DNA of 25,572 nucleotides, from the NCBI GenBank assembly GCA_016789485.1, contig JAEURE010000003.1:1-25572 (forward strand). The letters are read 5' to 3'. The position numbers and the translations under genes were made by a program. The DNA is from Anaerolineales bacterium. Its GTDB lineage: Bacteria > Chloroflexota > Anaerolineae > Anaerolineales > Villigracilaceae. Positions 6,899 through 25,571 of this stretch are shown piece after piece. Each line of letters begins with the position of its first letter. Position 1 is the first letter of the stretch. The notes beneath the pieces are model-generated. The model did no database searches and was not told the DNA's origin. It saw nothing but the letters and a program-made list of their open reading frames with translations.

Positions 6899-7437
6899 CA
6901 GGCCTTCGAGTCCGTTTTATTCGTCACCAGGAAATATCACCAGAGCTTCGAATCGAAATTGAAGAACTGGATCATCTGGCATTTGCAGGAGACGGCATTG
7001 ATAACGACCCTGAATTCGCAAATATTCGATGGGCAACCCCTGATTGGATGGCGCTCGGCTTTCTACATGAAGAATTGGTTACGCAATTGTGCATGCCCAA
7101 ACGCGAGATCATGGTCGGTGTTGAAAAAATTTGGGTGGCAGGGATCGGCGGCATGGCGACACATCCAAAGCACCATCACAAGGGATATGGCTCGGCGTTG
7201 CTGGCAGCAACTGAACCTTTTATACGAGATGAGATTCAAGTCCCATTCGGGTTGCTGATCTGCGCAAATACAACCCGGCCATTTTATGAACGAGCCCGCT
7301 GGCAGCATGCAGCCAATATGCTTTACTATCGTCAAGATGACCAACGCAGGGAACTGCATACAAGCGTAATGACCTTGCAATTACAAAATCAAACATGGCC
7401 CGCAGGTAAGATCGACCTATGTGGAGCACCATGGTAA
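6895..7437 (+). CDS. GNAT N-acetyltransferase, distantly AAC(2')-like
   Basis: This is a 180-residue cytoplasmic acetyltransferase of the GNAT fold. Motif A, which binds the acetyl-CoA pyrophosphate, is visible as GMATHPKHHHKGYGSALL (about 83-100). Beyond the general fold, FAGDGIDNDPEF near the N-terminus, the layout after motif A (FYERARW), and the C-terminal end DLCGAPW resemble aminoglycoside 2'-N-acetyltransferases, which end similarly. The start overlaps the upstream stop (ATGA), so the gene is translationally coupled to the operon. In this setting a plausible role is acetylation of the 2-amino group of an amino sugar; drug resistance or an unrelated amine are alternatives. The GNAT call is firm; the AAC(2') relation is from memory of that family and moderate. 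Confidence 0.75.
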   Translation: MTGLRVRFIRHQEISPELRIEIEELDHLAFAGDGIDNDPEFANIRWATPDWMALGFLHEELVTQLCMPKREIMVGVEKIWVAGIGGMATHPKHHHKGYGSALLAATEPFIRDEIQVPFGLLICANTTRPFYERARWQHAANMLYYRQDDQRRELHTSVMTLQLQNQTWPAGKIDLCGAPW

Positions 7438-7468
7438 TAACCATCCGACTAATTGACCAGGAGACAAC

Positions 7469-9638: not shown

Positions 9639-9661
9639 GTCACGCTTGAAGCATGACCTAC
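9635..9661 (+). repeat. 27-nt hairpin repeat, copy 2, at the GH114 stop codon
   Basis: The left arm GTAGGTCACGC and right arm GCATGACCTAC pair over 11 positions with one C/A mismatch around a TTGAA loop. The stem overlaps the TAG stop codon (9636-9638) of the GH114 gene. Length, outer GTAGG/CCTAC ends and the central TTGA coincide with the copy at 3578-3604, while the inner stem differs by paired changes. It probably acts at the RNA level between the lipoprotein gene and the aldolase gene. Confidence 0.65.
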
Positions 9662-9674
9662 ATGGAACCAAAAA

Positions 9675-10634: not shown

Positions 10635-10635
10635 C

Positions 10636-11547
10636 ATGTTCGACATTCTTGTTGCCGGTGAGATCAACCCTGATTTAATTCTTTCGGGCAATGTCATTCC
10701 TGAATTTGGGCAGGCCGAAAAACTTGTGGACAGCGCAACGCTTGCCATCGGCTCATCGTCTGCAATTTTTGCGTGCGGCGCGGCGCGACTTGGTCTGCAC
10801 GTTGCATTTATCGGCGTGTGCGGCGATGATGTCTTCGGGCGCTTCATGCTCGACGAGATGTCGAAACGAAATGTGGATGTCAGCAATGTCATCGTTCGCT
10901 CCGATCAGCAAACCGGGCTCAGTGTGATTCTCAATCAGGATGCCGACCGCGCGATTCTGACTCACCCCGGCCTGATCGCCGCGCTGCAAGCAGCAGACGT
11001 CTCTGACAATTTATTGCGCCAGTCGCGCCACTTGCATGTGGCGAGTTATTTCCTGCAAACAAAACTCCAGCCCGATCTTCCTGCATTCTTTAAACATGCT
11101 CGTTCCCTTGGATTAACCACTTCCCTCGACACCAACTACGACCCCTCTGAAAAATGGCTCGGCTTTGATGAACTGCTTACGGCCACGAACGTCTTTCTAC
11201 CGAATGAAAAAGAGGCCATGTCGCTTTCAGGTGCAGATAATATCAAAGAAGCAGCAACCAGGCTTCAGTTCAAGGTGGAGGCGCTTGCAATCAAACTTGG
11301 AGCGGATGGGGCATTGGGAATCCGCAATAACGAAATCGTCAGAGTCCCTTCCATCCCGGTGAAAGTTGTCGATACCGTTGGTGCCGGAGACAGCTTCGAT
11401 GCTGGCTTTATTTATGGCTATTTGCAAGGCTGGACGATGGAGAAATCATTGCGCGCCGCGGCGATATGTGGAGCGCTCTCTACACAAAAATCCGGCGGAA
11501 CGAGCGCGCAGCCAACGCTGAATGAGGTGATGAGTGAATTATCTTGA
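10636..11547 (+). CDS. PfkB-family carbohydrate kinase, probable tagatose-6-phosphate kinase
   Basis: This is a 303-residue ribokinase/PfkB-family sugar kinase. The start is ATG 10636, one base after the aldolase stop; a longer frame would overlap the aldolase by 140 bases. The N-terminal part shows DILVAGEINPDLILSG and CGAARLGLHVAFIGVCGDDVFG. The C-terminal anion-hole motif VDTVGAGDSFDAGF carries the catalytic base Asp252. Sitting between LacD and GatZ homologues, its simplest role is ATP-dependent phosphorylation of tagatose 6-phosphate to the 1,6-bisphosphate. It might instead phosphorylate the incoming hexosamine, since no other kinase is visible. The 3' end overlaps the next gene by 14 bases. 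Confidence 0.8.
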   Translation: MFDILVAGEINPDLILSGNVIPEFGQAEKLVDSATLAIGSSSAIFACGAARLGLHVAFIGVCGDDVFGRFMLDEMSKRNVDVSNVIVRSDQQTGLSVILNQDADRAILTHPGLIAALQAADVSDNLLRQSRHLHVASYFLQTKLQPDLPAFFKHARSLGLTTSLDTNYDPSEKWLGFDELLTATNVFLPNEKEAMSLSGADNIKEAATRLQFKVEALAIKLGADGALGIRNNEIVRVPSIPVKVVDTVGAGDSFDAGFIYGYLQGWTMEKSLRAAAICGALSTQKSGGTSAQPTLNEVMSELS

Positions 11548-12817
11548 CTTCGTTGTTGCCTCTCAAAAATTTGGAGAAGCGCGCGGAATCACGTCGGTGT
11601 GCTCGGCACATTCCTTTGTGCTGGAAGCGGCCCTGCGGCATGGCTTATCCGTCACGCCGAATATACCTGTGTTAATCGAAGCAACCTGCAATCAGGTTAA
11701 TCAATTCGGTGGATATACTGGCATGAAGCCGGTTGATTTTGTGCGCTTTGTATATGAGATCGCAGACCGCGTTGGGTTTCCACGTCACAACATTATTCTG
11801 GGCGGCGATCATCTGGGGCCGCTGGTCTGGTCGAACGAGCCTGCAGAAAACGCGATGGAAAAGGCAAAGGAGATGGTGCGCGAGTATGTGCGTGCGGGCT
11901 TCAGGAAAATTCATCTCGATTGCTCCATGCCTTGTGCCGATGATCAGGAATTACCGGTGGAACTGATCGCAAAACGTGCCACAGAATTGACAGCGGTTGC
12001 AGAAACAATAGCGGCAAAATTTGATTTCAAACCGCGTTATGTGATCGGTACAGAGGTGCCACCCGCTGGCGGAGCAAAAGCTGGGGAAGATCATGTCGTT
12101 ATCACGAATCCTATGGATGCGGAGGCAACCATTGATGTGACCCATCAAGCATTTTCTGCACGCGGATTAAATTCAGCATGGGAACGAGTCATAGCAACCG
12201 TTGTTCAGCCCGGCGTGGAATTTGGAGACGAGACCATTCATGAATACGACCGCTCGGCAGCTGTTGGTCTGGCGCGTTTCATCGAAACAATACCAGGCAT
12301 GATCTATGAAGCCCATTCAACGGATTATCAATCCCGTTCCACGCTGCAGTCATTGGTGGAGGATCACTTCGGGATTCTCAAAACTGGTCCCAGCCTGACG
12401 TTTGCATTTCGTCAGGCTGTGTTTGCCCTTGCTGATATGGAAAAGATCCTGAAAAAGGAAGATCAACTCTCCCATATCAATGAAGCGCTCGAAACTGCAA
12501 TGCTGAATCAGCCTGTATACTGGCAAAAGCATTATGCAGGCGCATCGCAACAACAAAAGTTTGCCCGCTTCTACAGCTTTAGCGACCGTATTCGATATTA
12601 TTGGAATGCCACCAATGTACAAACATCCTTTGAACACTTGTTGAGCAATCTGGGCGATGCACCGCTTCCGCTTTCACTGGTCAGTGAATATCTGCCGCGC
12701 CAATATGAAAAGATCCGCAGCAAGGAAATAGAAAATCATCCGCGCACATTGCTGCTTGCGCAGGTGATGGATGTCCTGGAGAATTATCGATTCGGGGTCA
12801 GTCAGCCTGTGTCCTAA
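11534..12817 (+). CDS. gatZ: GatZ/KbaZ family protein (tagatose-bisphosphate aldolase subunit or tagatose-6-phosphate epimerase)
   Basis: This is a 427-residue homologue of GatZ/KbaZ along its entire length. Diagnostic stretches are GITSVCSAHSFVLEAAL, LIEATCNQVNQFGGYTGM, ILGGDHLGP, KIHLDCSMPCADD, VIGTEVPPAGGA and FEAHSTDYQ-like YEAHSTDYQ. The GTG start at 11534 has GAGG at 11524-11527 and lies inside the kinase gene. E. coli GatZ/KbaZ stabilises the class II aldolase GatY/KbaY, but no such partner is here and the operon already has a LacD-type aldolase. Some stand-alone homologues are, as I recall, tagatose-6-phosphate 4-epimerases giving fructose 6-phosphate, which would make sense here. Family membership is certain; which activity applies is not. 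Confidence 0.85.
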   Translation: MNYLDFVVASQKFGEARGITSVCSAHSFVLEAALRHGLSVTPNIPVLIEATCNQVNQFGGYTGMKPVDFVRFVYEIADRVGFPRHNIILGGDHLGPLVWSNEPAENAMEKAKEMVREYVRAGFRKIHLDCSMPCADDQELPVELIAKRATELTAVAETIAAKFDFKPRYVIGTEVPPAGGAKAGEDHVVITNPMDAEATIDVTHQAFSARGLNSAWERVIATVVQPGVEFGDETIHEYDRSAAVGLARFIETIPGMIYEAHSTDYQSRSTLQSLVEDHFGILKTGPSLTFAFRQAVFALADMEKILKKEDQLSHINEALETAMLNQPVYWQKHYAGASQQQKFARFYSFSDRIRYYWNATNVQTSFEHLLSNLGDAPLPLSLVSEYLPRQYEKIRSKEIENHPRTLLLAQVMDVLENYRFGVSQPVS

Positions 12818-12847
12818 TATTAAGAAAAATTCGCTGACTATTAAATT

Positions 12848-12883
12848 AAGCTCACCTGCATGACGGCAGGCGAGTTTGTTTTT
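12848..12883 (+). terminator. Rho-independent terminator of the sugar operon
   Basis: A stem with arms CTCACCTGC (12851-12859) and GCAGGCGAG (12866-12874), one A/C mismatch and an ATGACG loop is extended outward by AAG/TTT pairing. It is followed by TTTGTTTTT (12875-12883). It lies about 30 bases after the gatZ stop and ahead of the membrane-protein gene, so it closes the long + strand operon. Confidence 0.8.
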
Positions 12884-12947
12884 AAACACAAAAGACGCTT
12901 CATAATCAATTAGAATAGAATTTTTATTTCGAAATCCCAGAAATCAA

Positions 12948-12959: not shown

Positions 12960-14636
12960 TTGCCAATTATTGAACGAACCCAGGGCTTGAGAAAGGCCTA
13001 TATAAATAAGAATTTCATCACTCTTATTATCTTGATATTAACCACAACCTTTTACCTGTACACACTTTCACCTTCACTTGCCTGGGGGGATGGAGTAAAG
13101 CTCCAAAGTGATGCCATTTTGGGGGAATCGTTCATCCTGACCGAAATGAGCAGCACTCAATTCACACCAGACCCCTATCCATTTGCCAAGGTAGGCGTAG
13201 CCGCATGGGATCATCCGCTATACATCATGCTGTGCCATATCCTTGTAAAAGCATTTCCATTTGTCAACTCGCTTTGGTTGGTCAACTTCATCTCTGCAGT
13301 TTTCGGAATTGCATCCGTTATTTTGGTCTTTCGGCTTTGTTACCAATACACTGAATCGCTTTTTGCATCGAGCTATGCTGCCCTTTCATTGGCGGTCTCG
13401 CACACTTTTTGGTGGCACTCAATTACACCGGAAGTATATACGCTCTTCGTTTTCCTCCTGCTTCTCAGTATGTATTTCTTTGGTCAATTTGAACAAAACA
13501 GTAAAATTTCGGCTTTAATATACAGCGGATTCTTTTTGGGGCTGGCGGCTTCAAATCATATTCTTGCCTTTCTTGCACTTCCGGCATGGGGGCTGTATAT
13601 TCTCCTCGCAAAATATCATCTTCATTTTGACATCAATAACTTTAAAAAGATAATGTTGGCATTGTTTGGTTTCCTGGCTGGCTTTTCCATTTACATCGTT
13701 CAATTCATACGTGTCTCCCGAAGCATTCCACTTGATAAACTTACAGGGTCATCCGTTGGGTCTACTTTTTTAAGCAGTCTTGTCGCAATTTCTCCAGCGG
13801 TATTGGGAGAAAGTTTGCTGAACTATCTTCTCTTCCTTGTACTTCAATTTGGTCCGATCGGAGTCATTTTAGGCGTCATCGGCATTCGCAGAATATTTGC
13901 AAATACCGATCCGCACGTGCGCAAGATCATTGCGTGTTTCATCGTTTTTACATTCTTTGGGATTCTGTACCGGGTGACAGACCAATTTGCTTTTTTTCTG
14001 ACCTCGCACGTTTTCTTTGCGATGTTGATGGGAGTTGGCCTAAATCACATCCTCAAGACGCTACAGGAAAAACTTCGCCTCATTCTGACCTCTATCCTGA
14101 TCCTCACCATTCTGCTGACACCACCCTTCTACCACTCCATTCCCCGCCTCGCCGAACTCAACGGCGTGGACGACTCCTTTCTCAAGATCCCACAAATCGG
14201 CACAGGCGTACGCAACGGGTTCGCTTACTATCTTGACCCATATAAACGCGGGGATTTCAACGCCTATCACTTTGGACGTGAGACGATCTCAAACTTGGCT
14301 CCAAACTCAATTGTTGTCGCTGAATGGTACACGGATACAGACGAATATTTTGTACTCCGTTATTTCAACAAAGTGGAAGGTTTGCGTTCAGATGTGATAA
14401 TCCTTGGTTGGCCCACTGATGACCCGTTTTCATTTGATTCCCAACTTGTATTGAAGGTGATCGAAGACTCTTATCCTGACCACCCCATCTATCTGGCATC
14501 TCTCAGCGACAAATTTTACGCCTCTTCAACATTAGTTGAGCTGTTTTGTATCGTGCCCGAAAACAATTTGTATCGCTTGTATCCAAAAGAGGCTATGACT
14601 CTGGATTGCCTCGGCGTTGATTCTGTCACTGAGTAG
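12960..14636 (+). CDS. DUF2723 (TMEM260-like) multi-pass membrane protein, putative GT-C glycosyltransferase
   Basis: This is a 558-residue integral membrane protein with about ten hydrophobic helices up to residue 390 and a soluble C-terminal domain (about 395-558). The first helix (18-37) is followed by LSPSLAWGDGVKLQSDA, whose acidic residues are typical of the first external loop of GT-C enzymes. AAWDHPLYIM and HTFWWHSITPEVYTLF are characteristic of the DUF2723 family. Relatives include eukaryotic TMEM260, a protein O-mannosyltransferase, so transfer of a lipid-linked sugar outside the membrane is the likely chemistry. Translation starts at TTG with AAGGAG six bases upstream. The first two thirds look AT-richer than the end of the gene. 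It stands alone between the two clusters and overlaps the convergent PPTase gene by 11 bases. Confidence 0.8.
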   Translation: MPIIERTQGLRKAYINKNFITLIILILTTTFYLYTLSPSLAWGDGVKLQSDAILGESFILTEMSSTQFTPDPYPFAKVGVAAWDHPLYIMLCHILVKAFPFVNSLWLVNFISAVFGIASVILVFRLCYQYTESLFASSYAALSLAVSHTFWWHSITPEVYTLFVFLLLLSMYFFGQFEQNSKISALIYSGFFLGLAASNHILAFLALPAWGLYILLAKYHLHFDINNFKKIMLALFGFLAGFSIYIVQFIRVSRSIPLDKLTGSSVGSTFLSSLVAISPAVLGESLLNYLLFLVLQFGPIGVILGVIGIRRIFANTDPHVRKIIACFIVFTFFGILYRVTDQFAFFLTSHVFFAMLMGVGLNHILKTLQEKLRLILTSILILTILLTPPFYHSIPRLAELNGVDDSFLKIPQIGTGVRNGFAYYLDPYKRGDFNAYHFGRETISNLAPNSIVVAEWYTDTDEYFVLRYFNKVEGLRSDVIILGWPTDDPFSFDSQLVLKVIEDSYPDHPIYLASLSDKFYASSTLVELFCIVPENNLYRLYPKEAMTLDCLGVDSVTE

Positions 14637-15354
14637 CATTCCAGTCCCAATATCTAAATTCCAAGCCTTCGCCTTCAACGGCAAGTGCGCCTGCATACCC
14701 CGAATCCACGCTCAACGATACTAATGTCCAGCGGGAGGCAAGATTTGGGTCTGGGCGAGTGGCACGAAGAATCGCAGGTTCATTTGGAGCAAGCGACACA
14801 TCGAAACTGTCCAGCGATAGGGATAAACCGAGTCCCTGCGCTTTGATGTACGCTTCTTTACGAGTCCAGCAATTGAAAAATCCACTTATTCTTTGCTCGG
14901 GAGATAATGCCATTAATTCTGAAACCTCGCCTGGCGAAAAGTTATGGCTGGCAATGCTTTCGAGCGCCATATCTTCACGGACACGTTCAACGTCTATGCC
15001 AACTTTGCATCCACGTGTGACTGCTATCAGTGCATAATCATCTGAGTGAGAGAGGTTGAATTCCAGATTCAGGTCGAAAAGTATGAAAGGCTTGCCATAA
15101 TTGTTCTTCTGGAAAGTTATTTGCCCGGGCTCACAATGAAGATAGCGTGTAAGGATATTGCGCAGGCTGGTATGAGACGCAATGAAGCGATGTTTATCCG
15201 AGTCAAAGTGAAAGCGCGAGGCACGCTGGGTTTCCTCCGCCGACAGGGTGGATTCGCTCAATTTAACAGAATCAGGCAAAATGTCCAGAAGGATGCGCCA
15301 AACATCCACTTGATGAAGAGTCAAATCCAGATGATCAGGCGGGTAAGTCCACAT
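14626..15354 (-). CDS. Sfp-type 4'-phosphopantetheinyl transferase
   Basis: This 242-residue enzyme moves the 4'-phosphopantetheine arm from coenzyme A to the conserved Ser of carrier domains, converting apo- to holo-synthase. The Mg-binding motif GIDVE (119-123, Asp121 and Glu123) and the family motif NCWTRKEAYIKAQGLGLSL (161-179, with Trp163, Lys166, Glu167 and Lys171) are intact. The NLSHSDDYALIAV segment at about 100-112 is the third family signature. The length fits the Sfp/Gsp group rather than the short AcpS group. It starts eight bases after the thioesterase stop and would serve the three carrier domains of the megasynthase encoded upstream. Its 3' end overlaps the DUF2723 gene on the other strand. 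Confidence 0.9.
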   Translation of the reverse strand: MWTYPPDHLDLTLHQVDVWRILLDILPDSVKLSESTLSAEETQRASRFHFDSDKHRFIASHTSLRNILTRYLHCEPGQITFQKNNYGKPFILFDLNLEFNLSHSDDYALIAVTRGCKVGIDVERVREDMALESIASHNFSPGEVSELMALSPEQRISGFFNCWTRKEAYIKAQGLGLSLSLDSFDVSLAPNEPAILRATRPDPNLASRWTLVSLSVDSGYAGALAVEGEGLEFRYWDWNATQ

Positions 15355-15362
15355 TTCGGAAT

Positions 15363-16130
15363 TTATTTCGTCGAATCCAACACCGAAAGAATTTCAGCAA
15401 TGACAGATTTTCTGGCAGTATGTATGAAGAAATGATCGCCAGGGAAATATTTTAATTCGAAATGTGCGTTGGCATGTATGGCCCAGCCCTCCAGGCGTTC
15501 GCGGCTCACACGCGGATCGTCGAGCCCGCCAAACACAAGAACGGGGCAATTCAGCGGCGAAGTCATTGCAAATCGATACGTTTCGATCAATTCAAAATCG
15601 GCGCGCAGGGTGGGCATAAGCAACTGCATCACATCCGGTTGATTCAACAATTCGGCAGGGATGCCATTTAGTTCTTTTAGCGATGTTAAAAATTGAGCAT
15701 CAGGCAAATTATGAAGAAGCAGATGATGATCAAGGATATGCGGCGCGTCACATGCGGAGATAAAAAGTGCGGTGGGTTGAGGCAGGTTGTTTTGGTGCAG
15801 GGTTCGCGCAAGTTCAAAAGCAACCAGGCCTCCCAAACTGTGACCAAAGAAGGCAAAAGGTTTATCCAACAAAGGTTGAATGGTCTGAAAGATTTTTTCA
15901 ACCAAAACAGCAAGCTCTTTGATCGGAGGCTCGTTATAGCGCGAACCTCTGCCAGGATAGTGAGCTATTCGCGCTTCAATATTAGCAGGAAGGTCAACAG
16001 CCCACTTATTGAATACAGCCGGACCGCCGCCCGCGTATGGAAAGAAGAACAGGCGAGTCTCAGCTTTTGGATTCGGTTGTGGACAGACAAACCATTGATT
16101 TGAATTTAATGACGAAGATGGTGAATGCAC
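15363..16130 (-). CDS. Type II thioesterase (GrsT-like editing alpha/beta hydrolase)
   Basis: This 255-residue external thioesterase clears wrongly loaded or stalled acyl groups from carrier domains of NRPS/PKS lines. The fold signature FFFPYAGGGPAVF (28-40) is followed by the nucleophile elbow GHSLGG with Ser98. The catalytic Asp is Asp204 or Asp205 in FGGLDDPRVS, and His233 sits in FPGDHFFIH. The start is a GTG at 16130, seven bases after the methyltransferase stop, without a clear ribosome-binding site, which suggests coupling to the gene before it. Since the megasynthase ends in a reductase and has no TE domain, this protein is the only hydrolytic thioesterase in the cluster and is probably for proofreading rather than release. 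Confidence 0.9.
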   Translation of the reverse strand: MHSPSSSLNSNQWFVCPQPNPKAETRLFFFPYAGGGPAVFNKWAVDLPANIEARIAHYPGRGSRYNEPPIKELAVLVEKIFQTIQPLLDKPFAFFGHSLGGLVAFELARTLHQNNLPQPTALFISACDAPHILDHHLLLHNLPDAQFLTSLKELNGIPAELLNQPDVMQLLMPTLRADFELIETYRFAMTSPLNCPVLVFGGLDDPRVSRERLEGWAIHANAHFELKYFPGDHFFIHTARKSVIAEILSVLDSTK

Positions 16131-16137
16131 GCTGTTG

Positions 16138-16950
16138 TTAATCGCTTAGAGTCCGTCTGAATGTGTTCAACCGCGAAAGCACAGGTTTGGTAACGGCATC
16201 CCATGCCTGTCGAGCAAATTCCTTTGCCAATATGGCAGGAGCAAGCAACGGTGAATGCGGCTGTTGATTTTCAACACCATCAGGGAACATCTTTTGCAAG
16301 TTTGCGAATATGGCCTCATCGCGCACCCCCAAAACCATCTCGCAGGATGTAGGCAGCCACAACCAACGCATTCCTTGTTTCTCAGCAACACGCAGGCATG
16401 GAACTATGCCTGACAGCCAGAAATCATGCCAGACGAAGATCGTTTTGGAATCGGTAAATGGAAGAATGGCTTCAAAATCATATGTAACTTGAGGATGGCT
16501 ATGATCGGCGTCAATGAATACCAGGTCATGCCGGGCCGCCTCAACAGCCCATGCAGTATCGGCAGGCGAGCGTCCCTTTTTATTCTTGAGCAATGTTAAT
16601 TCCAGTTTATCGGCCAGGCGTCGAGCCACGGCGGCGCAGTCCTGCCCATTCCCTTCGATCTCACTATCAAGCGTCACCAAACTCTTTCCACCGTGATGAC
16701 GCATTACGTCTGCAATATAGCAGGACGAAAAACCAAACGCATTACCAACAATAAAGGCATGCGCAGGCCGAAACTGCTCGATCAACCTTCCGAATACAGC
16801 ACATTCATCCTCCCCAATACTGATCGGAAACAACGTGCCGGATAACACGCGGTGCGGACCACCCGTATTCAACAAGCCACGCTGCCATACTAGTGAAGTC
16901 TCGGCTACCTCATTCAGTGCATTTACAACGCGATTCAAGCTGTCAGTCAC
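16138..16950 (-). CDS. Methyltransferase_24-like SAM-dependent methyltransferase
   Basis: This is a 270-residue Rossmann-fold protein resembling class I O-methyltransferases of the Methyltransf_24 group. The SAM-binding glycine loop reads FIVGNAFGFSSCYIA (67-81), lacking the usual acidic residue just before it. LVTLDSEIEG supplies the acidic residue (Asp95) for the ribose. FIDADHSHPQVTYDFEAILP (145-164) and VWHDFW (173-178) contain Asp and His residues placed as in metal-dependent members. The start is GTG 16950 with AAGGAG seven bases upstream. It is encoded 41 bases after the megasynthase in the same direction, so it may tailor the product, for example by methylating an enol or hydroxyl. 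The substrate is unknown. Confidence 0.7.
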   Translation of the reverse strand: MTDSLNRVVNALNEVAETSLVWQRGLLNTGGPHRVLSGTLFPISIGEDECAVFGRLIEQFRPAHAFIVGNAFGFSSCYIADVMRHHGGKSLVTLDSEIEGNGQDCAAVARRLADKLELTLLKNKKGRSPADTAWAVEAARHDLVFIDADHSHPQVTYDFEAILPFTDSKTIFVWHDFWLSGIVPCLRVAEKQGMRWLWLPTSCEMVLGVRDEAIFANLQKMFPDGVENQQPHSPLLAPAILAKEFARQAWDAVTKPVLSRLNTFRRTLSD

Positions 16951-16978
16951 AGGCGTTCTCCTTTGTTCGTTATTCCAT

Positions 16979-16990
16979 ACTTTATAAAGT
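16979..16990. repeat. 12-bp perfect palindrome between synthase and methyltransferase genes
   Basis: ACTTTATAAAGT is a perfect palindrome one base beyond the synthase stop codon. It contains a TATAAA-like core on the minus strand about 20 bases before the methyltransferase ribosome-binding site. No matching -35 box at 16-18 bp is visible, so promoter or operator function is speculative. Confidence 0.3.
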
Positions 16991-16991
16991 C

Positions 16992-19900
16992 TTAATTTTG
17001 TATACTGGATACAAGACCCGAACTTACAAAATACTTTACGTAGATATCAATTAAATTTTCGTCCACTGATGGGCACACAATGGACGAGCCTTCCAATCCG
17101 GCAAGCGTGTTGGATAGGTCGAGGCGCGGAAGGCTCAGGCTTCCCTTCCCAACCTGGTTGATCAATGGAAGAAAGGCATGGAAGGATTCTTCTGGAAATT
17201 GCTTTGCCAGATTGTAATAATCCGCCTTCCACTGTACGAAGGGAAGCTGCTTGATCGGCACGCCCCTCTTTGCAATCATGGCAAAGACATCAATGAAGTT
17301 TGCCTGTTTCAGTGACGAGAGATGAAATGTTTTTCCAAAAGAGGCTGGCTGGCTGGCAAGATGAACGATGGCATTGCTGACAAAATCCACAGGCACAATG
17401 CCGCCCATAATCTCCACATCAGGGACCGAGCCCATTTTGAAGATCGCGCGTACGAGGCTATAGGTCATATCACTGGTATTCAGGATGCCCGTGCGGCTAT
17501 CACCAAGGATGTTGTCGGGTCTAAAAATCGTAATAGGGATGCCACGCTGCGAGGCGGCACGCATCAAACCTTCTGCCACCCACTTGCTTTGACCATAACC
17601 ACCGAAAGGAACCCCAACTTCCTCAAGATTTGCGTTTTCGTAACACAGGGTTTTGTCGCGCAAATCACCTTTCATGAAAACCGAAAGCGAAGAGATAAAA
17701 TGAACAGGTTTAATTCTCTTTGTACTCGCCAGTTGCAGCACTTCGTGTGTGCTATCCACATTGACAGATTTAAGCGCGTGATACGGATATACAAAATTCA
17801 CCATCGCGCCGTTGTGATAGATCACATCCAACTCATCAGCCAGTGATTCGTAATCTGTGTTGGAAAGTCCAAATCGTTTGCTATCCAAATTGCCAAGGAC
17901 GATGCGAATACGTGGAATTAAATTTTCATTCCAGAGTTCATAATATCCAAGATTCTTCTTGATCCTGTGCAAACCATCTTCTTCACTATTTGCCCGAACA
18001 AGGCAGTGAATGACGGCATGAGTCCTTTCCAACAAACTACTCAGTAAATACGCTCCCAAAAAGCCTGTTGCGCCCGTGAGCAGGATATGCCTTGGGTCAT
18101 CCACATGCTTATAAGGAGTGCCATTTACATGCACCATGTCATCTATAAAAACATCATTTTTTAGTTCATCCAATGTGACCACATCAAAATGATGATCGAC
18201 ATTGGTAGGCAAGGCACGAGCTTCTTCCACGGCCTTTGCAAGGCCAGCAACAGTTGGCATTTCAAAGAGGCGCACAAGTGGAAGCCTTACCTGAAAATGT
18301 TCCTGCAATTGGAAGATCAGTCGCGTTGCGATCAGCGAATTACCTCCGATGTCAAAGAAATTATCATGGATACCCACCCGTTCCAAATTGAGCACCTCGG
18401 CACAAATATTAGCAATGGCCTGTTCGTCTGCATTGCGCGGAGCGATATATTCCGTCTTTGCAGCAAGATTCCCCTGCGACAGTGCAGGCAACGACTTGCG
18501 GTCTACTTTACCGTTGGGAGTCATTGGCAATGAATTGAGACTGACAAACGCGGAAGGGATCATGTACTCAGGAAGTTTCGTACGCAGGAACTCGCGCAAT
18601 TGACCAGTATCCGCTTCCTTCTCAGCCGAAGCTGGTACTACATAAGCAACCAGACTCGCCTCTGAGGATATATCCCTGCGAACCAGGACGACAGCCTGCC
18701 GCACAGACGGATGCTCTGCCAACGCGACTTCAATTTCGCCTATCTCGATACGGTAACCGCGCACCTTCACTTGCTGGTCACTGCGCCCAAGGAATTCAAT
18801 ATTTCCATCGGAGAGATAACGGGCAAGGTCGCCTGTTTTATAAATGGAAGACGCTGGATCAAATGGATTGGGAATGAATTTTTCGGCCGTCAACTTGGGG
18901 CGATTCAAATACCCGCGACTGAGTCCATCACCGCCAATATATAGGTCACCGATCACACCAATGGGAGCAGGTTGCAAATTTGAATCCAAAATATAAATTT
19001 GCGTGTTGGCAATGGCGCGGCCAATGGAAACTCCGCCTGAAATATCGCGCTGAGATTTTTCCACGCGATATATCGTTGACCAAATCGTTGTCTCTGTTGG
19101 GCCGTAAAGATTCCACAATTCAGCGCCACGCTCCATTAACTGGTCAGCTAGATCGTTGGGTAGGGCTTCGCCGCCGCACAAAATCTTTAGGTCAGGTTTT
19201 CCCTTCCAGCCAGCGTCGATCAACATGCGCCAAGTGGCTGGGGTCGCTTGCATCATCGTGGCATTCGTGCGTTCCATTTCTTTCATCAGCAAGTTGGGGT
19301 CAAAAGCAGTTTCTTTGTCAGCAATGACGACTTTTGCGCCTGTCACAAGCGGAAGATACAACTCCAATCCAGCAATATCGAATGAGAGTGTCGTTACAGC
19401 AAGAAGTGTGTCGTTTGCAGTTAAGCCAGGTTCCTTCTGCATGGAGGCAAGGAAGTTGAGCAAAGCCCGATGTGGAATCATCACACCTTTTGGTTTGCCA
19501 GTGGAACCGCTTGTGTATAAAACATAAGCGAGATTGTCAGATGTATGCTTCTCGTCTTTTTTGCGTGCCGTGCGTTTTTTAGTTTTGGATATATCAGTTA
19601 ATTCATCCAGTAAAATGACTTTCTCTGCGTATTCAGGGAACAGTGATGCAAGCGATGTTTGCGTGATGAGCACGGGCGCAGCGGAGTCAGCCAGCATAAA
19701 GGCGAGGCGTTCCAATGGGAATGTGGGGTCAAGAGGCACGTACGCGCCGCCTGCTTTGTGAATTCCCAGTAGAGCAGCAAGCATGTGAGGCGAACGATCT
19801 ACACAAAGACCAACAAACGTTTCGGGCTTCACGCCTTGCTTTCGCAGAACAGCAGCAACCTCATTTGCGCGTTCATCAAGTTCTCGATACGTCCACTGTT

Positions 19901-22900
19901 GTTCATGGAAGACTACCGCAATTGCATCGGGTGTCTTTTCAACTTGTGCTTCAATCAATTGATGCAGACATAGGTCGCGCGGATAATCTGCGTCGGTGGC
20001 ATTTAGCTGATCGAACAGGATCCGCTCAGAGTGAGAAAGAAGCGGAATCCTAGAGAGGAGTTGATCTGGTGAAGCGGAAATTCCATCCAAAAGGTTTTGG
20101 AAGTGTTCCCCAAATCGCGTGATAGTAGATGGGTCGAAGAGGTCAGGGTTGTAAATAAACGCAGCCGATAAACCGTTGCCAGTTTCTGCCATCATCAACG
20201 TGAGATCGAATTGCGAAGGCTGCCGCAAGAGGCTCATCGATTCGAGAGTCAGGTCGTCCATTTTGAGGCGTGCGCCAGGGATGCCGAGCGCAAGAGAATT
20301 CAAATCGCGTACGCTGTCAACGTGAGCCTTTTCATAGATAAAAGTTGTTTCAAATAACGGCGGACGACTTGCATCGCGGTGGAGGATTTGCAGACGTTCC
20401 ACCAACAATGCGGGTGGAAAATCCTGATGGTCGAGCGCATCCAAAACTGTTTGACGAATCTGTTCAAGCAACGTGACAAAGTTCGGATCATTCGAGAAAT
20501 CTGCGCGCATGGCAACAGGATTCACAAAATATCCCATCAGACCAGCAAAGTCAGAATGAGTGCGGCCCGCCATTGCCGAACCCACAAGGATATCGGTCTG
20601 GCCGCTATAACGATGCAAAAGGGTTTGAAACGCAGCCAGCAAGGTCATGTAAAGAGTCGCGCCGTTTGCCGAAGCAAGTTCCTTGAGTCTTTGTGTGCGT
20701 TCAGTGTTGATATGCAGATGCTGTGTTTCGCCGCGATAGATCTGAATAGGCTTGCGAGGCCTGTCAACAGGAAGATGCAGAATCGGTAATTCGCCCGATA
20801 ACTGTTCGCGCCAATACTCCCAATGGCTTTCTCCATCAGAACCTGCCAGTGTTTCATTTCGCCAATGTGCAAAATCCACATAGGAATGATCGAGATGCGG
20901 CAAAGGCGAATCGAGTCCATGTTTGATAGCGGTATACAATGTCATTAACTCGGAAGCCAGCAAAGTCATTGACCAGAAATCAGTGATGATGTGATGGACT
21001 GCCACCAGGGCAACAGTTTCCAGTGCAGATCTTTTGAATAGGACAACACGGAAGGCTGGCTCATTTTCCAGGTCAAATGAACGGAAAGCAGACTCTTCCA
21101 AGCGGGATTGAAGCGCCTCTTCTGTCCATTCAGCTGCTTCTGTTTCTTCAAGCGGTAGATGCATCTGGAGATGAACTCGCTGCATAGGTTCGCCGTCCAT
21201 CACTTTGAAAGTTGTTCGCAGCACAGCGTGACGCGCCATCAAAGCTGCAAACGCTCGACGGAACGCATCGCGGTCAAGTTCGCCAAGTAGACGAACTGCT
21301 CCAGATACGTTGAATGAGACGCCCTCTGGCATTAATTGATCGAGAAGCCACATCGCCTGTTGATTATGTGTAAGCGGATGAAAACCTTCAACGCTTTGCG
21401 ATACGACCATCGTGATGTTGTTCACTGGCTCGTCAATATGTTCAAGAATTTGGGCCGCCAGCCCGGAGACAGTTGGGCCCTGAAGCAAACTGGAAACAGG
21501 CACCTGGATTCCAAGTTTTGACTCCAGTGAGTTCTTGAATTCGATAGCCATTAGTGAATCGAGTCCCATCGTATCCAAGGGCTGATTCAAGTTCAAACGT
21601 GCAGTATCCATCCCCAGAATGCGGGCAGCTTGTCTTTGGAGAAAATCCTCCAATACTTTTTGTCGTTGAGTTGGGTCAGCAGCTGCTAATTTTTTATGAT
21701 TTAACTCGTTCGCATCACGCGGTGTGACAGTTTTTTGTGAGGGCAGAGACTCTGTTTTTGCTCTTCCGTTTCCACCAGCCATCAATTCTTCATGCGCCGC
21801 ATGTGACTTTCCATTCGAGCGCAAGGGAAGGGTCGCCCCATCAGCATCGCCAACCACAAATTGTTGCTCAGGCCTTGGCCTCGAAGCCTTCTCTATAACA
21901 CCCCTGTGAGTTGTCGCTACTGGTTCGAGCCAATAATGTTGACGGTCAAAGGGATAAGTGGGCAACACAACTCGATGGCGTATATATCCATGATCAAATT
22001 CACGCCAGTTTATTTCTGCGCCTTGAACATAAAGTTTTCCAAGGCTGTCTAAAATTACCTGCCATTCATCCTGATTTTGTCGAAGAGATGGCAGCCATGC
22101 GGCTTTTGAATCAGGAAGGCAATATTTTCCCATTCCAAGCAGCACGGGGCTGGGGCCAATCTCAATGAACGTGTCAATTCCTGAATTCGCCAGCGCTTGC
22201 ATCCCAGCAGAGAATTTCACTTCTGCGCGGATGTGATTCCGCCAGTAAGCAGCATCAGGAATTTGAGAAAGTACTTCGCCAGTTATGTTGGAGATTAATG
22301 GGACTTGAGGATTCGTGAAGTGAATGCGTCTGGCAAATGATTCAAACTTATCCAGAATCGAATCCATTAGTGGGGAATGGAAGGCATGTGAAACGGTCAA
22401 CGGTTTGGATGAGATACCAAGTTTCGTCAGTTCATCTACAATGCTTTGCACTGCTATCTTCTCGCCAGAGATAACAGTATTATCCGGTCCGTTGGTCGCT
22501 GCTATGGAAACTTTATCGAGATGAGGTTTCAATACATCTGTGATAGGAGCTGCATCTGCAAAAATGGCGACCATTGTCCCATGCTGGGGCAACGTACCCA
22601 TAAGGCGTGCACGTTCAGCGATAAGTCGCAATCCATCTTCGAGACTGACCACACCCGCGATACAGGCAGCGACATATTCACCGACACTGTGACCAAGCAC
22701 CGCCTGCGGTTCAATACCCCATGAACGCCACATCTGTGCAAGCGCATATTCGAAGGCGAAGAGTGCTGGTTGGGTGTAGGTAGTCTGATGAATTGTTGAA
22801 TCATTTTTATTGGCAAAAATAATTTCGAGCAGCGAACGATTCAAAACAGGGTTAAGAATTTGCGAACACTCATCCAGTGTGGCGCGAAATGCAGGTTGAG

Positions 22901-25571
22901 TTTCGTATAACTGCTTTCCCATACCCGCATATTGCGACCCCTGACCCGTGAAGAGAAAAGCTATTTTCGGCCGGGCACCTGACTTTACCTGACCAGTTAT
23001 AAAGGATGATTCTGTCTTATTTAGAAAATCATCAATTTCCCTTTTCAATTCGTCGGTCGAATGGGCCTGAATCGAAAGCCGATGCTCAAAGTGCGAGCGC
23101 GTTGTATTGGCAGTAAATGTCAAATCTTGTATCGGCTGCTTTTTTGTATCGAGAATTGCACGGACTCTCTCCGCAAATTCCTGCAAAGCAAACTCGGTCT
23201 TTGCAGACAAAGCAAGGATATGCCGCGGGCGTTCAAAGGTATTTAATTCTTGATTTGTTGCCGAAAGCGGAGCATCAGAAAGAACAATGTGTGCGTTCGT
23301 ACCGCCGAAACCAAACGAACTCACACCTGCAAAACGCGGTTGCTCGCGGCGTTTCCAGGGCCGAAGATATGTCCCGATCTCAAGCCGAGAGTCTTCTATC
23401 GCAAGATAGGGGTTGATCTCTTTTAGGCGAAGATGTGGTGGAATGGCTTCATTTTGCATCGCGAGCACCACTTTGACAAGCCCCGCAATGCCCGCCGCTG
23501 ATTCGAGATGACCGATATTGGTTTTGACCGAACCCACCAAGACACGATTGTTTGTTTGTTCATCATGAAGCACAGCACGCAGTGACGCCATTTCAATTGG
23601 GTCGCCTAACGGTGTGCCCGTGCCGTGGGCTTCGATATAACCGATTTGATTCGGTGTAACCTGTGCCTGATTCAAAGCCTGACGAATAACATCCTGTTGA
23701 GCCAAACCATTTGGAGCCGTGAGCCCGTTACTGCGCCCATCTTGATTCACTGCCGAGCCGCGAACCAGCGCAAGGATGTTATCTCCATCGCGCAAGGCAT
23801 CGGATAAGCGTTTCAAAATCACAACGCCGCACCCCTCACCGCGCACGTATCCATCTGCATTTGCATCAAATGTTTTGCAACGGCCATCGGGAGAGAGCAT
23901 CCGCGCCTGCGAGAAGGTGATGGTCAACTCGGGCGTCAGGATGAGATTTACGCCTCCAGCCAACGCCAAATCTGATTCCCCGCTTCGTAGACTCTGACAT
24001 GCGAGATGCACAGACACCAATGACGACGAACAAGCCGTATCCACCGCCATGCTGGGGCCGCGTAGATCAAAGACATACGATAGTCGATTCGCTGCGATGC
24101 TGTGTGCATTGCCAGTACCAGCATAGGCATCGATTCTTTCGGGGTCGTCAAATTGTAGCCGTGAGTAATCGGAGCTGCTGATCCCAACGAACACGCCCGT
24201 GCGAGTCCCGGCTAAAGATTGAGGCAGAATAAATGCGTTTTCGAGCGCTTCCCAACTTACTTCAAGAAGGAGGCGTTGTTGAGGGTCCATTCGTGCGGCT
24301 TCACGCGGAGAAATCCCAAAGAAGTGCGGGTCGAATAGACCCACATTATCGAGGAATCCGCCAAAGCGAGTTGTCACTTTCCCCGGTGAAGGTTCGGTTG
24401 AATGAAATGCATTCACGTCCCAGCGATCTGATGGGACTTCAGTAATGGCATCCACGCCATTACGTAATAATTCCCAAAAAGCCTGTGGATTATCCGCTTG
24501 TGGGAAGCGACAGCTCAATCCAATGATGGCAATCGGTTCGTTGAAGTTATTGAAAACAGGTTGATGAGATACAGGTGTTGGTATAGTTTTGGCAGGCTGT
24601 GAGGCACTCGCAAGAAAATTTGCAAGCGCTTCAATCGTCGGATAATCCCACGCCAATGTAGGGGAAAGTTTGCGGTTGAGAAAAACTTCAAGGTCACCGG
24701 TCAAGCTGACAGCCTGCACCGAGCCCAACCCATAATATGTGAACGGCTGGCGTGGATCAATACCTGATGCATCCATTTCCAGCATGGATGCGATCTGTGC
24801 AATCAGCCAGGACTGAAGCTCTGATGATGTCTTTGGTTTGGCTTCTGGAATTGCCGAGTGAGCCTTTTGCGCTGCATCTTTCTTCAACGCAATGGACTTT
24901 GTTCGCCATTCACCAACCACATCCAGTTGTCCATCCAAAAAGGCAGTTCTCGTTGCACGGCGTTGGATTTTTCCACTGGATGTTTTTGGGACACTCATCG
25001 GTTTGACAAGCACAATGGCAAAAACCTGCAAATCATGTTTTTCAGAGACCGCCTGACGAATCGCAGAAGTCACTTCGTCCATATTTCCCTGTCTACCCTG
25101 CCGCGTGACCTCTTGAACAATAACCAGGTGCTCTTTGCCATTCTCAGTAACCGAAAACGCGGCCCCTCCCGCTGGCTGCAAAGCGGGGTGGGAAGACTCG
25201 ACAGTTAATTCAATATCTTGAGGATAGTGATTACTTCCATTTATGATGATCAGATCTTTGATACGTCCTGTGACAAACAGTTCCCCATTTTGCAAAAAGC
25301 CAAGATCGCCCGTGCGCAGAAACGGACCTTCACCAGTGTTGGAAACAAATGCTTGAAAAGTCCTGTGCGTTTCCTCTTCCAAGCCCCAGTATCCCTGTGC
25401 AACGCTCGGGCCAGAAACCCAGATTTCACCCACCTGGTTCGAATCACAAAGCTCCAGCGTTGTTGGATTAACGATCACGATCTTCTGGTCAATGATCGAC
25501 GGACCGCAATTGACCATGGTTACTGAACCTGTATCACCAGTTGACAAGGGGACAACGCGGTCATTTTCCAA
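16992..25571 (-). CDS. Hybrid FAAL-PKS-NRPS megasynthase with terminal reductase, 5' end outside the window
   Basis: At least 2859 residues are encoded; the frame is open at the right edge, so the true start and most of the first domain are missing. Domain order by visible motifs is: fatty-acyl-AMP ligase C-terminal part (to about 228), ACP (248-322, Ser284), ketosynthase (345-765, Cys514, His649, His688), malonyl-type acyltransferase (868-1170, Ser962), ACP (1303-1380, Ser1339), condensation (1396-1845, HHIITD at 1526-1531), adenylation (1868-2366), PCP (2378-2450, Ser2412) and thioester reductase (2493-2859, Tyr2659/Lys2663). There is no KR, DH, ER, MT or TE domain. All active-site residues I could check are present, so the line should be functional. 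It would load a fatty acid, add a C2 unit keeping the ketone, attach an amino acid (predicted glycine) and release the chain reductively. Downstream genes supply tailoring, editing and activation. Confidence 0.93.
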   Translation of the reverse strand: MENDRVVPLSTGDTGSVTMVNCGPSIIDQKIVIVNPTTLELCDSNQVGEIWVSGPSVAQGYWGLEEETHRTFQAFVSNTGEGPFLRTGDLGFLQNGELFVTGRIKDLIIINGSNHYPQDIELTVESSHPALQPAGGAAFSVTENGKEHLVIVQEVTRQGRQGNMDEVTSAIRQAVSEKHDLQVFAIVLVKPMSVPKTSSGKIQRRATRTAFLDGQLDVVGEWRTKSIALKKDAAQKAHSAIPEAKPKTSSELQSWLIAQIASMLEMDASGIDPRQPFTYYGLGSVQAVSLTGDLEVFLNRKLSPTLAWDYPTIEALANFLASASQPAKTIPTPVSHQPVFNNFNEPIAIIGLSCRFPQADNPQAFWELLRNGVDAITEVPSDRWDVNAFHSTEPSPGKVTTRFGGFLDNVGLFDPHFFGISPREAARMDPQQRLLLEVSWEALENAFILPQSLAGTRTGVFVGISSSDYSRLQFDDPERIDAYAGTGNAHSIAANRLSYVFDLRGPSMAVDTACSSSLVSVHLACQSLRSGESDLALAGGVNLILTPELTITFSQARMLSPDGRCKTFDANADGYVRGEGCGVVILKRLSDALRDGDNILALVRGSAVNQDGRSNGLTAPNGLAQQDVIRQALNQAQVTPNQIGYIEAHGTGTPLGDPIEMASLRAVLHDEQTNNRVLVGSVKTNIGHLESAAGIAGLVKVVLAMQNEAIPPHLRLKEINPYLAIEDSRLEIGTYLRPWKRREQPRFAGVSSFGFGGTNAHIVLSDAPLSATNQELNTFERPRHILALSAKTEFALQEFAERVRAILDTKKQPIQDLTFTANTTRSHFEHRLSIQAHSTDELKREIDDFLNKTESSFITGQVKSGARPKIAFLFTGQGSQYAGMGKQLYETQPAFRATLDECSQILNPVLNRSLLEIIFANKNDSTIHQTTYTQPALFAFEYALAQMWRSWGIEPQAVLGHSVGEYVAACIAGVVSLEDGLRLIAERARLMGTLPQHGTMVAIFADAAPITDVLKPHLDKVSIAATNGPDNTVISGEKIAVQSIVDELTKLGISSKPLTVSHAFHSPLMDSILDKFESFARRIHFTNPQVPLISNITGEVLSQIPDAAYWRNHIRAEVKFSAGMQALANSGIDTFIEIGPSPVLLGMGKYCLPDSKAAWLPSLRQNQDEWQVILDSLGKLYVQGAEINWREFDHGYIRHRVVLPTYPFDRQHYWLEPVATTHRGVIEKASRPRPEQQFVVGDADGATLPLRSNGKSHAAHEELMAGGNGRAKTESLPSQKTVTPRDANELNHKKLAAADPTQRQKVLEDFLQRQAARILGMDTARLNLNQPLDTMGLDSLMAIEFKNSLESKLGIQVPVSSLLQGPTVSGLAAQILEHIDEPVNNITMVVSQSVEGFHPLTHNQQAMWLLDQLMPEGVSFNVSGAVRLLGELDRDAFRRAFAALMARHAVLRTTFKVMDGEPMQRVHLQMHLPLEETEAAEWTEEALQSRLEESAFRSFDLENEPAFRVVLFKRSALETVALVAVHHIITDFWSMTLLASELMTLYTAIKHGLDSPLPHLDHSYVDFAHWRNETLAGSDGESHWEYWREQLSGELPILHLPVDRPRKPIQIYRGETQHLHINTERTQRLKELASANGATLYMTLLAAFQTLLHRYSGQTDILVGSAMAGRTHSDFAGLMGYFVNPVAMRADFSNDPNFVTLLEQIRQTVLDALDHQDFPPALLVERLQILHRDASRPPLFETTFIYEKAHVDSVRDLNSLALGIPGARLKMDDLTLESMSLLRQPSQFDLTLMMAETGNGLSAAFIYNPDLFDPSTITRFGEHFQNLLDGISASPDQLLSRIPLLSHSERILFDQLNATDADYPRDLCLHQLIEAQVEKTPDAIAVVFHEQQWTYRELDERANEVAAVLRKQGVKPETFVGLCVDRSPHMLAALLGIHKAGGAYVPLDPTFPLERLAFMLADSAAPVLITQTSLASLFPEYAEKVILLDELTDISKTKKRTARKKDEKHTSDNLAYVLYTSGSTGKPKGVMIPHRALLNFLASMQKEPGLTANDTLLAVTTLSFDIAGLELYLPLVTGAKVVIADKETAFDPNLLMKEMERTNATMMQATPATWRMLIDAGWKGKPDLKILCGGEALPNDLADQLMERGAELWNLYGPTETTIWSTIYRVEKSQRDISGGVSIGRAIANTQIYILDSNLQPAPIGVIGDLYIGGDGLSRGYLNRPKLTAEKFIPNPFDPASSIYKTGDLARYLSDGNIEFLGRSDQQVKVRGYRIEIGEIEVALAEHPSVRQAVVLVRRDISSEASLVAYVVPASAEKEADTGQLREFLRTKLPEYMIPSAFVSLNSLPMTPNGKVDRKSLPALSQGNLAAKTEYIAPRNADEQAIANICAEVLNLERVGIHDNFFDIGGNSLIATRLIFQLQEHFQVRLPLVRLFEMPTVAGLAKAVEEARALPTNVDHHFDVVTLDELKNDVFIDDMVHVNGTPYKHVDDPRHILLTGATGFLGAYLLSSLLERTHAVIHCLVRANSEEDGLHRIKKNLGYYELWNENLIPRIRIVLGNLDSKRFGLSNTDYESLADELDVIYHNGAMVNFVYPYHALKSVNVDSTHEVLQLASTKRIKPVHFISSLSVFMKGDLRDKTLCYENANLEEVGVPFGGYGQSKWVAEGLMRAASQRGIPITIFRPDNILGDSRTGILNTSDMTYSLVRAIFKMGSVPDVEIMGGIVPVDFVSNAIVHLASQPASFGKTFHLSSLKQANFIDVFAMIAKRGVPIKQLPFVQWKADYYNLAKQFPEESFHAFLPLINQVGKGSLSLPRLDLSNTLAGLEGSSIVCPSVDENLIDIYVKYFVSSGLVSSIQN
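16995..18095 (-). other. Domain: terminal thioester reductase
   Basis: Residues 2493-2859 are a short-chain-dehydrogenase-type reductase: NAD(P)H loop TGATGFLG (2499-2506), a Ser pair in FISSLSV (2627-2628), and the YxxxK pair Tyr2659/Lys2663 in YGQSK. Such domains release the chain as an aldehyde or, after a second hydride transfer, an alcohol. Confidence 0.92.
18222..18440 (-). other. Domain: peptidyl carrier protein
   Basis: Residues 2378-2450 carry NFFDIGGNSLIATRL with phosphopantetheine site Ser2412. Confidence 0.95.
18474..19970 (-). other. Domain: adenylation domain, predicted glycine
   Basis: Residues 1868-2366 show core motifs A1 to A10 (for example YTSGSTGKPKGV, NLYGPTETT, YKTGDLARY, PNGKVDRK). 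Aligning by eye to GrsA gives pocket residues Asp2065, Ile2066, Leu2069, Gln2108, Leu2131, Gly2133, Leu2155, Ile2163, Trp2164 and Lys2355. This is DILQLGLIWK, which I recall as a glycine code. Confidence 0.85.
20037..21386 (-). other. Domain: NRPS condensation domain
   Basis: Residues 1396-1845 hold the C3 active-site motif HHIITDFWS (1526-1534) intact, plus C1-like LTHNQQAMWLL and C5-like MGYFVNPVAMR. It would join the 3-oxoacyl chain to the amino group of the loaded amino acid. Confidence 0.95.
21432..21665 (-). other. Domain: second acyl carrier protein
   Basis: Residues 1303-1380 contain MGLDSLMAIEF with Ser1339. The stretch between the AT and this carrier (about 1218-1300) is low-complexity linker with no reductive domain in it. 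Confidence 0.9.
22062..22970 (-). other. Domain: acyltransferase, predicted malonyl-CoA specific
   Basis: Residues 868-1170 include the entry motif FLFTGQGSQYAGMG and nucleophile Ser962 in GHSVGEY. The specificity motif is HAFH (1062-1065); HAFH marks malonyl-CoA and YASH marks methylmalonyl-CoA. Confidence 0.9.
23277..24539 (-). other. Domain: ketosynthase
   Basis: Residues 345-765 are a modular type I ketosynthase: Cys514 in DTACSSSL, His649 in EAHGTGTPLGDP, and Lys683/His688 in KTNIGHLESA. All catalytic residues are present, so it is an elongating, not a decarboxylating (KSQ), domain. Confidence 0.95.
24606..24830 (-). other. Domain: first acyl carrier protein
   Basis: Residues 248-322 carry the phosphopantetheine site YGLGSVQAVSL with Ser284. 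This carrier receives the fatty acyl group from the FAAL and presents it to the ketosynthase. Confidence 0.85.
24888..25571 (-). other. Domain: fatty-acyl-AMP ligase (FAAL), C-terminal part
   Basis: Residues 1-228 show FLRTGDLGFL, then GRIKDLIIINGSNHYPQDIE and a C-terminal PKTSSGKIQRR. The NHYPQDIE form is typical of FAAL enzymes, which load free fatty acids onto a carrier as acyl-adenylates, rather than of amino-acid adenylation domains. The core ATP-binding part lies outside the window. Confidence 0.85.

Follow-up and report, generated by a model that had tools for sequence, protein, structure and literature searches.

A lipid-primed, single-protein PKS-NRPS locus of Anaerolineales with two synthase types and a neighbouring FHA-ABC transporter

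The window analysed here is the whole of a 25,572-nucleotide stretch from an Anaerolineales bacterium, contig C333 of the metagenome-assembled genome (MAG) G000 (2.83 Mb, 477 contigs, 75% complete). Its right-hand part carries a hybrid polyketide synthase-nonribosomal peptide synthetase (PKS-NRPS), followed by three smaller genes. The four genes run in one direction on the minus strand, and they and the synthase domains lie where a sequence-only reading of this DNA had put them:

16992..25571, minus strand: whole synthase frame, 2859 residues, truncated 5' at the contig edge
24882..25571, minus strand: C-terminal part of a fatty acyl-AMP ligase (FAAL), its N-terminal core beyond the contig end (PF23024 and FAAL models; domain end by eye)
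24582..24839, minus strand: first acyl carrier protein (ACP1), serine motif GLGSV at 24717-24731 (PF00550 and motif position; ends by eye)
23247..24539, minus strand: ketosynthase (KS), active-site motif DTACSSS at 24021-24041 (PF00109/PF02801)
22002..22958, minus strand: acyltransferase (AT), GHSVGE at 22677-22694 and HAFH at 22377-22388 (PF00698)
21675..21911, minus strand: linker between AT and ACP2, probable border of an exchanged cassette (per-domain trees, identity drop)
21426..21662, minus strand: second acyl carrier protein (ACP2), GLDSL at 21552-21566 (PF23297)
20025..21389, minus strand: condensation domain (C), HHIITD (type I) at 20979-20996 (PF00668)
18489..19952, minus strand: adenylation domain (A), code DILQLGLIWK, predicted glycine (PF00501/TIGR01733, code extraction)
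18228..18422, minus strand: peptidyl carrier protein (PCP), GGNSL at 18333-18347 (PF00550)
17013..18089, minus strand: terminal thioester reductase (TD), TGATGFLG at 18054-18077 and YGQSK at 17583-17597 (PF07993, TIGR01746)
16138..16950, minus strand: methyltransferase with the fold of cation-dependent O-methyltransferases (PF13578)
15363..16130, minus strand: type II thioesterase (TE), GHSLG, putative editing enzyme (PF00975)
14626..15354, minus strand: Sfp-type 4'-phosphopantetheinyl transferase (PPTase) (PF01648, PF22624)

Pfam and NCBIfam models place the KS at residues 345 to about 775 of the synthase, the AT at 872-1185, ACP2 at 1304-1382, the C domain at 1395-1849, the A domain at 1874-2361, the PCP at 2384-2448 and the thioester reductase at 2495-2853, and PF00550 matches three stretches of the protein. 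Among the Pfam matches in this frame there is no ketoreductase, dehydratase or enoylreductase, and the carrier, KS, AT, C, TD, TE and PPTase motifs are all intact in the window. The TD scores 340.9 bits with TIGR01746, above the cut-off of 213.35, and contains the short-chain dehydrogenase/reductase motifs TGxxGFxG and YxxxK. With the curated model NF045894 (PKS_plus_SDR) the protein scores 1278.8 bits, below the required 1740.

Two complete orthologues, in loci L006 (genome G004) and L010 (G085), consist of 3197 and 3209 residues, and alignment with them indicates that about 350-360 N-terminal residues are missing from the window synthase. Both follow the order FAAL-ACP-KS-AT-ACP-C-A-PCP-TD, of which only the FAAL core is absent from the window. 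That this core lies beyond the window edge had been anticipated, and the further upstream modules that might have altered the logic of the line are absent from both orthologous proteins, which begin with the FAAL core. The earlier domain list holds for every domain it named and had omitted the ACP between FAAL and KS. With these domains in one line and their motifs intact, the protein belongs to the FAAL-primed hybrid PKS-NRPSs, the FAAL core being seen only in the L006 and L010 orthologues, and the domains and motifs support the proposed lipid activation, single unreduced ketide extension, one amino-acid module and reductive release. In both loci the same three genes then follow. Identities to the window in L006 and L010 are 80 and 71% for the synthase, 79 and 74% for the methyltransferase, and 56 and 62% for the PPTase, whose gene in L006 runs off the contig end. 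The TE is 61% identical in L010, and its match in L006 is split over two frames, the longer reaching 67% over 177 residues.

The locus recurs across Anaerolineales. With the TD as query, matches at E 1e-60 were found in 42 of 400 genomes of the order, many in frames of about 3200 residues; in the ten or so weakest cases the match is to a different TD, usually within a frame of about 1580 residues. A protein search, capped at 8000 candidates, supplied the best 120 of 7970 scored matches, to which P0122 was added; 22 of the 121 fell outside a length of 2300-3450 residues and were dropped. The possibility that the window synthase is a lone oddity was rejected, the 99 remaining rows aligning along the same layout, some of them partial (P0001, P0139, P0206 and P0208 among others).

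The catalytic residues are largely conserved in this alignment. The KS cysteine is kept in 98 of 99 relatives (a gap in the other), and the KS also retains its two histidines; GHSxGE of the AT is found in nearly all 99, while its second motif reads VSHAFHSP in 93 and differs in six. From its HAFH motif, presumably a mark of malonyl specificity, the AT looks to be of malonyl type. The second histidine of the C motif is present in 99 of 99 relatives, and the TD pair TGxxGFxG and YxxxK in 97, the other two being gapped at that place. A-domain codes, extracted at pocket positions placed by GrsA numbering, read DILQLGLIWK in 65 rows, DILQLGVIWK in 21, other DILQLG forms in eight and DI[GA]Q[VI]TLVWK in three, and are cut in two. 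The exact code DILQLGLIWK was not found in the literature searched, and near codes served instead; since passages of PMC5466765 and PMC12283262 assign near-identical codes to glycine, the A domain is predicted to activate glycine.

The relatives fall into two types, 27 rows of type I, including the window, with HH in the C motif and 72 of type II with DH. The TD motif follows the same division, being GYGQSKW in 25 of 27 type I rows (two gapped there) and GYAQSKW in all 72 of type II. Mean identities to P0122 for types I and II are close in the front half (FAAL 76 and 73%, KS 87 and 84%, AT 73 and 72%) and part in the back half (ACP2 70 and 60%, C 78 and 50%, A 76 and 64%, PCP 82 and 53%, TD 79 and 47%), the type I means being lifted slightly by P0139, a near-identical partial copy of P0122.

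Phylogenetic trees, built by short searches under LG+G4, place this conflict at a defined point. According to the PCP-TD tree (97 rows), a single branch with support 100 parts the two types, whereas the KS-AT tree (99 rows) requires 14 type changes, at least eight of them forced by starred branches. Seven long, odd or partial rows (P0206, P0208, P0216, P0223, P0231, P0235 and P0239) were left out of a second KS-AT tree and of the per-domain trees; the second KS-AT tree shows 12 changes, at least nine forced, and rejects holding type I together (p-AU 5e-5, log-likelihood 537 lower). Domain by domain, label changes number 7 for FAAL (86 rows, 6 forced), 11 for KS (3 forced) and 12 for AT (5 forced; both 92 rows), so that the single-domain front trees force fewer changes than the joint KS-AT tree. 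In the back half (92 rows) there are two for ACP2, one for each half of the C domain, two each for the A core and subdomain, and one each for PCP and TD. The many changes in FAAL, KS and AT against one or two from ACP2 onwards set the border between AT and ACP2, and the linker there appears to be the point at which an ACP-C-A-PCP-TD cassette has been exchanged more than once. Identity per 100 residues between P0129 (type I) and P0146 (type II) is 74-97% through the AT, 50-63% in the C domain, 70-83% in the A domain and 28-54% in PCP-TD, a pattern that points to a separate history of the A domain in that pair.

The accessory genes are not all equally tied to the synthase. Thirty loci, the window and G004 among them, were read around TD matches to about 1.5 kb beyond the TD, and G085 was read additionally. 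The methyltransferase occurs in all three type I loci (window, G004, G085) and in none of 26 GYAQSKW loci. As a core gene it was rejected, with strong matches in 2 of 400 genomes of the order, 1 of 400 of the phylum (the window's own genome, the sole match at E 1e-40) and 3 of 151 relatives (G000, G004 and G085); 22 others of the 400 order genomes have matches only at E 3e-9 or weaker. More distant relatives, one of them from Polyangiales, share about 50-60% identity. The protein has the COMT-type (cation-dependent) O-methyltransferase fold, and its candidate metal ligands D147, H150, H175 and D176 are invariant in 23 of 23 rows; no solved relative was found by sequence, the single match at E 0.016 being taken as chance. 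The TE, a stand-alone PF00975 protein with GHSxG, is of type II with a putative editing role and is present in 21 of the 26 GYAQSKW loci within the stretch read; the other five (L070-L074) are without it, and three of them also without a PPTase, in flanks of only about 1.5 kb. The PPTase scores 189.3 bits with HetI model NF042922, below its 370, and is Sfp-type by PF01648 only. Two further loci stand apart: L056 (G257) has GYGQSKW, a TD identity of only 50%, a weak TE (36%) and no methyltransferase within its 2610 bases, and L054 (G203) has neither motif. The core operon thus appears to consist of synthase, TE and PPTase, with the methyltransferase belonging to the type I cassette, and its place in the self-sufficient set proposed from sequence is that of a variable part.

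An extra reading frame stands between TE and PPTase in G017 (L090, 1153-1968), and in G349 and G284 (L102, L103) the gap there is large enough for a gene; no match to the window methyltransferase was obtained there.

Beside the synthase, relatives carry a transporter with three forkhead-associated (FHA) matches plus ABC and ABC-2 domains, a lipoprotein and a Ser/Thr kinase. Nor, then, do the four genes form the whole set, as had been supposed. The transporter set is divergent from and upstream of the synthase in nine of ten upstream stretches fetched (L075-L082 and L084; L083 ended at the contig), and it is also upstream in both complete type I loci (G004, where the transporter gene contains a run of N, and G085) and on C442, another contig of the window's MAG. 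The combination that defines Rv1747-like systems, FHA, ABC and ABC-2 membrane domains with a kinase gene nearby, was found in relatives and on C442 only, not in the window. The comparison within one genus covered 35 genomes, of which 15 had a TD match and 20 were listed as having none. A transporter of at least 76% identity accompanies the synthase in 13 of 13 genomes and occurs in none of the 22 without it. In G085 a membrane protein without a Pfam match, P0244, lies between synthase and transporter, and G004 has a 51% relative some 13 kb upstream of its synthase (coordinates for this observation: L007 14608-15309 and L044 2432-3139).

From this gene content a pathway may be proposed. FAAL would load a fatty acid onto ACP1, the KS and the malonyl-type AT would add one unreduced ketide on ACP2, and the C domain would couple the 3-oxoacyl chain with glycine activated by the A domain; the lack of reductive PKS domains, together with the AT and A-domain motifs, predicts N-(3-oxoacyl)glycyl-PCP as the tethered intermediate. 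The TD, using NAD(P)H, would release it reductively, probably as an aldehyde whose carbonyl could condense with the acidic beta-ketoamide methylene to give a 3-acyl-3-pyrrolin-2-one. In passages of PMC12403116, the terminal R domain of the mutanoclumpin system is proposed to carry out a two-electron reduction to an aldehyde, which by facile aldol condensation becomes a five-membered lactam; by this precedent, closure to a 3-acyl-pyrrolinone has about an even chance. In type I loci the O-methyltransferase would methylate an enol or hydroxyl oxygen, after or before release, while the TE would clear mis-loaded carriers and the PPTase would activate the carriers. A common FAAL-ACP-KS-AT front would have been joined repeatedly to one of two ACP-C-A-PCP-TD cassettes, the methyltransferase accompanying one of them. 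In relatives, export of the product would fall to the FHA-ABC transporter, lipoprotein and kinase, with phosphorylation as the control. Taken together, we modestly favour the explanation that the locus, with its modular synthase, produces a small compound of fatty acid and glycine and probably exports it. Its boldest form, in which exported and kinase-gated 3-acyl-pyrrolinone (or O-methylated) lipids, made by a plug-in synthase with two interchangeable release cassettes in a largely conserved Anaerolineales locus, constitute a signal or matrix lipid class new to the literature searched, can be put forward only tentatively.

Several observations weigh against this interpretation. Neither the FAAL core nor the synthase's own upstream neighbours fall within the window, and the transporter copy of its MAG lies on the other contig, C442, beside a second synthase fragment. 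The class "with synthase" was defined after the TD search, by a match at or beyond a cut-off near E 1e-115, and the 22 genomes counted as without include G012 and G003, in which the TD is matched more weakly (41 and 34%); synthase and transporter being linked, finding them together is evidence of co-inheritance and not of function. By eye, the alignment shows other pocket residues in the second, glycine-activating A domain of LgrA, and the type I relatives P0128, P0129 and P0141 carry a different code, DIGQVTLVWK or a near form. Finally, the closeness of the TD to MxaA makes a four-electron release to an ethanolamide a real rival.

In P0128, P0129 and P0141, the altered code may reflect an amino-acid change within the same type I scaffold.

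In that rival, two successive reductions by the TD would yield an N-(3-oxoacyl)-ethanolamine (N-acylglycinol) without a ring, its hydroxyl or an enol being capped by the methyltransferase. MxaA of the myxalamid synthase is the nearest solved TD chain by sequence (4u7w, 299 bits, E 5.9e-88), and a reference title ties it to primary alcohols. Two- and four-electron release look alike in the present sequences, and in the passages on mutanoclumpin, one bacterial precedent, the aldehyde is proposed to cyclise readily (PMC12403116); the ethanolamide is a possible product, with the chances rather against it.

Similarly, the FHA-ABC, lipoprotein and kinase genes might be mere neighbours with a separate job, such as envelope lipid transport. 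In Mycobacterium, the FHA-ABC protein Rv1747 and the kinase PknF are reported to share a two-gene operon, and more remote transporters occur in G003 and G001 (51 and 47% identity). The strict association across the 35 genomes speaks against independence, as does G048, where the transporter set lies downstream of the synthase instead of upstream yet is still linked; a separate job is conceivable and, on this evidence, rather improbable.

The tree conflict could also have arisen by homogenisation of the front half, through gene conversion between two co-resident synthases, rather than by swapping of the back half. Bin G000 does hold fragments of both types, with type I on C333, a further fragment on C442 and a type II TD motif on C209. 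Among the 42 TD-match genomes, however, G000 alone has two TD matches above 40% identity (at most four candidates scored per genome), and the type I locus of G085 is flanked by the genes that flank type II loci elsewhere, which makes gene conversion unlikely. Under swapping or gene conversion alike, the border is at the AT-ACP2 linker.

The usual precursors of tetramates are beta-ketoaminoacyl thioesters, and redox-dead fungal R domains have lost the catalytic tyrosine. A tetramic acid or other non-reduced product, with the TD as a Dieckmann-type cyclase, is very improbable, the TIGR01746 match and the conserved nucleotide and YxxxK motifs counting against it, although passages of PMC5466765 report a DILQLGVI pocket also for the nocamycin (tetramic acid) synthetase.

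Among known systems, MxaA is the terminal module of a long polyketide line that has an alaninol end and is not known to include a FAAL. The KS-AT of P0001 matches that of CurL (4mz0) with 1013.7 bits; CurL and the cyanobacterial FAAL-ACP-KS-AT loading and extension proteins are not known to have a fused C-A-PCP-TD of this kind and make other products. The Pks13 model NF040607 is matched in part, with 852.6 bits against a cut-off of 2100, and mycobacterial Pks13 is an ACP-KS-AT-ACP core fed by a FAAL and is not known to have an NRPS part. The transporter set resembles Rv1747-PknF in its FHA domains fused to an ABC-2 exporter with a kinase gene nearby, and differs in its three FHA matches, the lipoprotein gene between transporter and kinase, and the adjoining PKS-NRPS operon. 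The mutanoclumpin (mcg) PKS-NRPS of Streptococcus mutans, in the passages of PMC12403116, is alike in its FAAL-loaded fatty acid, malonyl extension, amino acids and reductive release with proposed lactam closure, a likeness of description rather than of sequence; it has several modules on several proteins, a separate FAAL and a terminal serine, whereas the Anaerolineales system has one module of each kind in a single protein, a fused FAAL and glycine. No characterised cluster sharing this architecture at close sequence identity, which the sequence-only reading had named as its refutation, was found in the searches made, in which no characterised-cluster collection such as MIBiG was compared. 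No paper describing this synthase system was recognised in the literature searched (Anaerolineae/Chloroflexi clusters, reductive release with pyrrolinones), and listings of recombination literature held nothing on it. Passages of PMC11748557 and PMC10681181 report NRPS/PKS clusters in Anaerolineae MAGs, and those of PMC6497799 concern Ktedonobacteria.

A conserved exported small lipid, if true, would be one of the few predicted secreted compounds of Anaerolineales. These bacteria are abundant in sediments and sludge and hardly cultured. The core, one synthase of about 3200 residues with TE and PPTase, is small enough for whole expression. The recombination border after the AT, apparently used repeatedly in nature, could guide the joining of PKS and NRPS parts, and the transporter and kinase genes next to the synthase offer a handle on the cargo of FHA-ABC exporter/kinase pairs.

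The same MAG contains further synthase fragments. C442 was considered as the missing piece of the window and rejected, the overlap having 74.6% DNA identity over 2078 bases, which marks another synthase copy. There (L040, 1-3223), FAAL-ACP-KS is read in two frames that overlap in the KS region, which would reflect misassembly, gene decay or a mixed bin. The transporters of C442 and G027 share 97% identity, and window positions 1-12900 have no match in G027 at E 1e-20. The C-A-PCP-TD end on C209 (L085, 1-3750) combines a TD motif of type II with DQNFITDFW, an unusual form of the C motif. GC content is 48-50% for the window, C442 and C209 alike and does not separate two loci from a mixed bin.

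Beyond the PPTase, a gene for a TMEM260-like membrane protein (12960..14636, plus strand, PF11028) converges on it and is a recurring neighbour, seen in the window, in G085 and in 13 of the 18 downstream stretches fetched for other loci; a FabF gene lies there in 11 of those 18 and in G085. One or both recur in loci of both synthase types (L086-L092, L097-L103 and L010).

The left part of the window, 46-12817 on the plus strand, is a separate sugar locus that looks like one for uptake and breakdown of galactosamine polymers. Profile scans identified an amidohydrolase, an SIS (AgaS-like) protein, a DUF4832/DUF4874 lipoprotein and a GH114 lipoprotein, and by eye the other genes encode an ABC sugar transporter, a GNAT protein, a GH4-like hydrolase and LacD-, PfkB- and GatZ-like proteins. 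DNA related to this locus is present in G048 at 70-84% identity.
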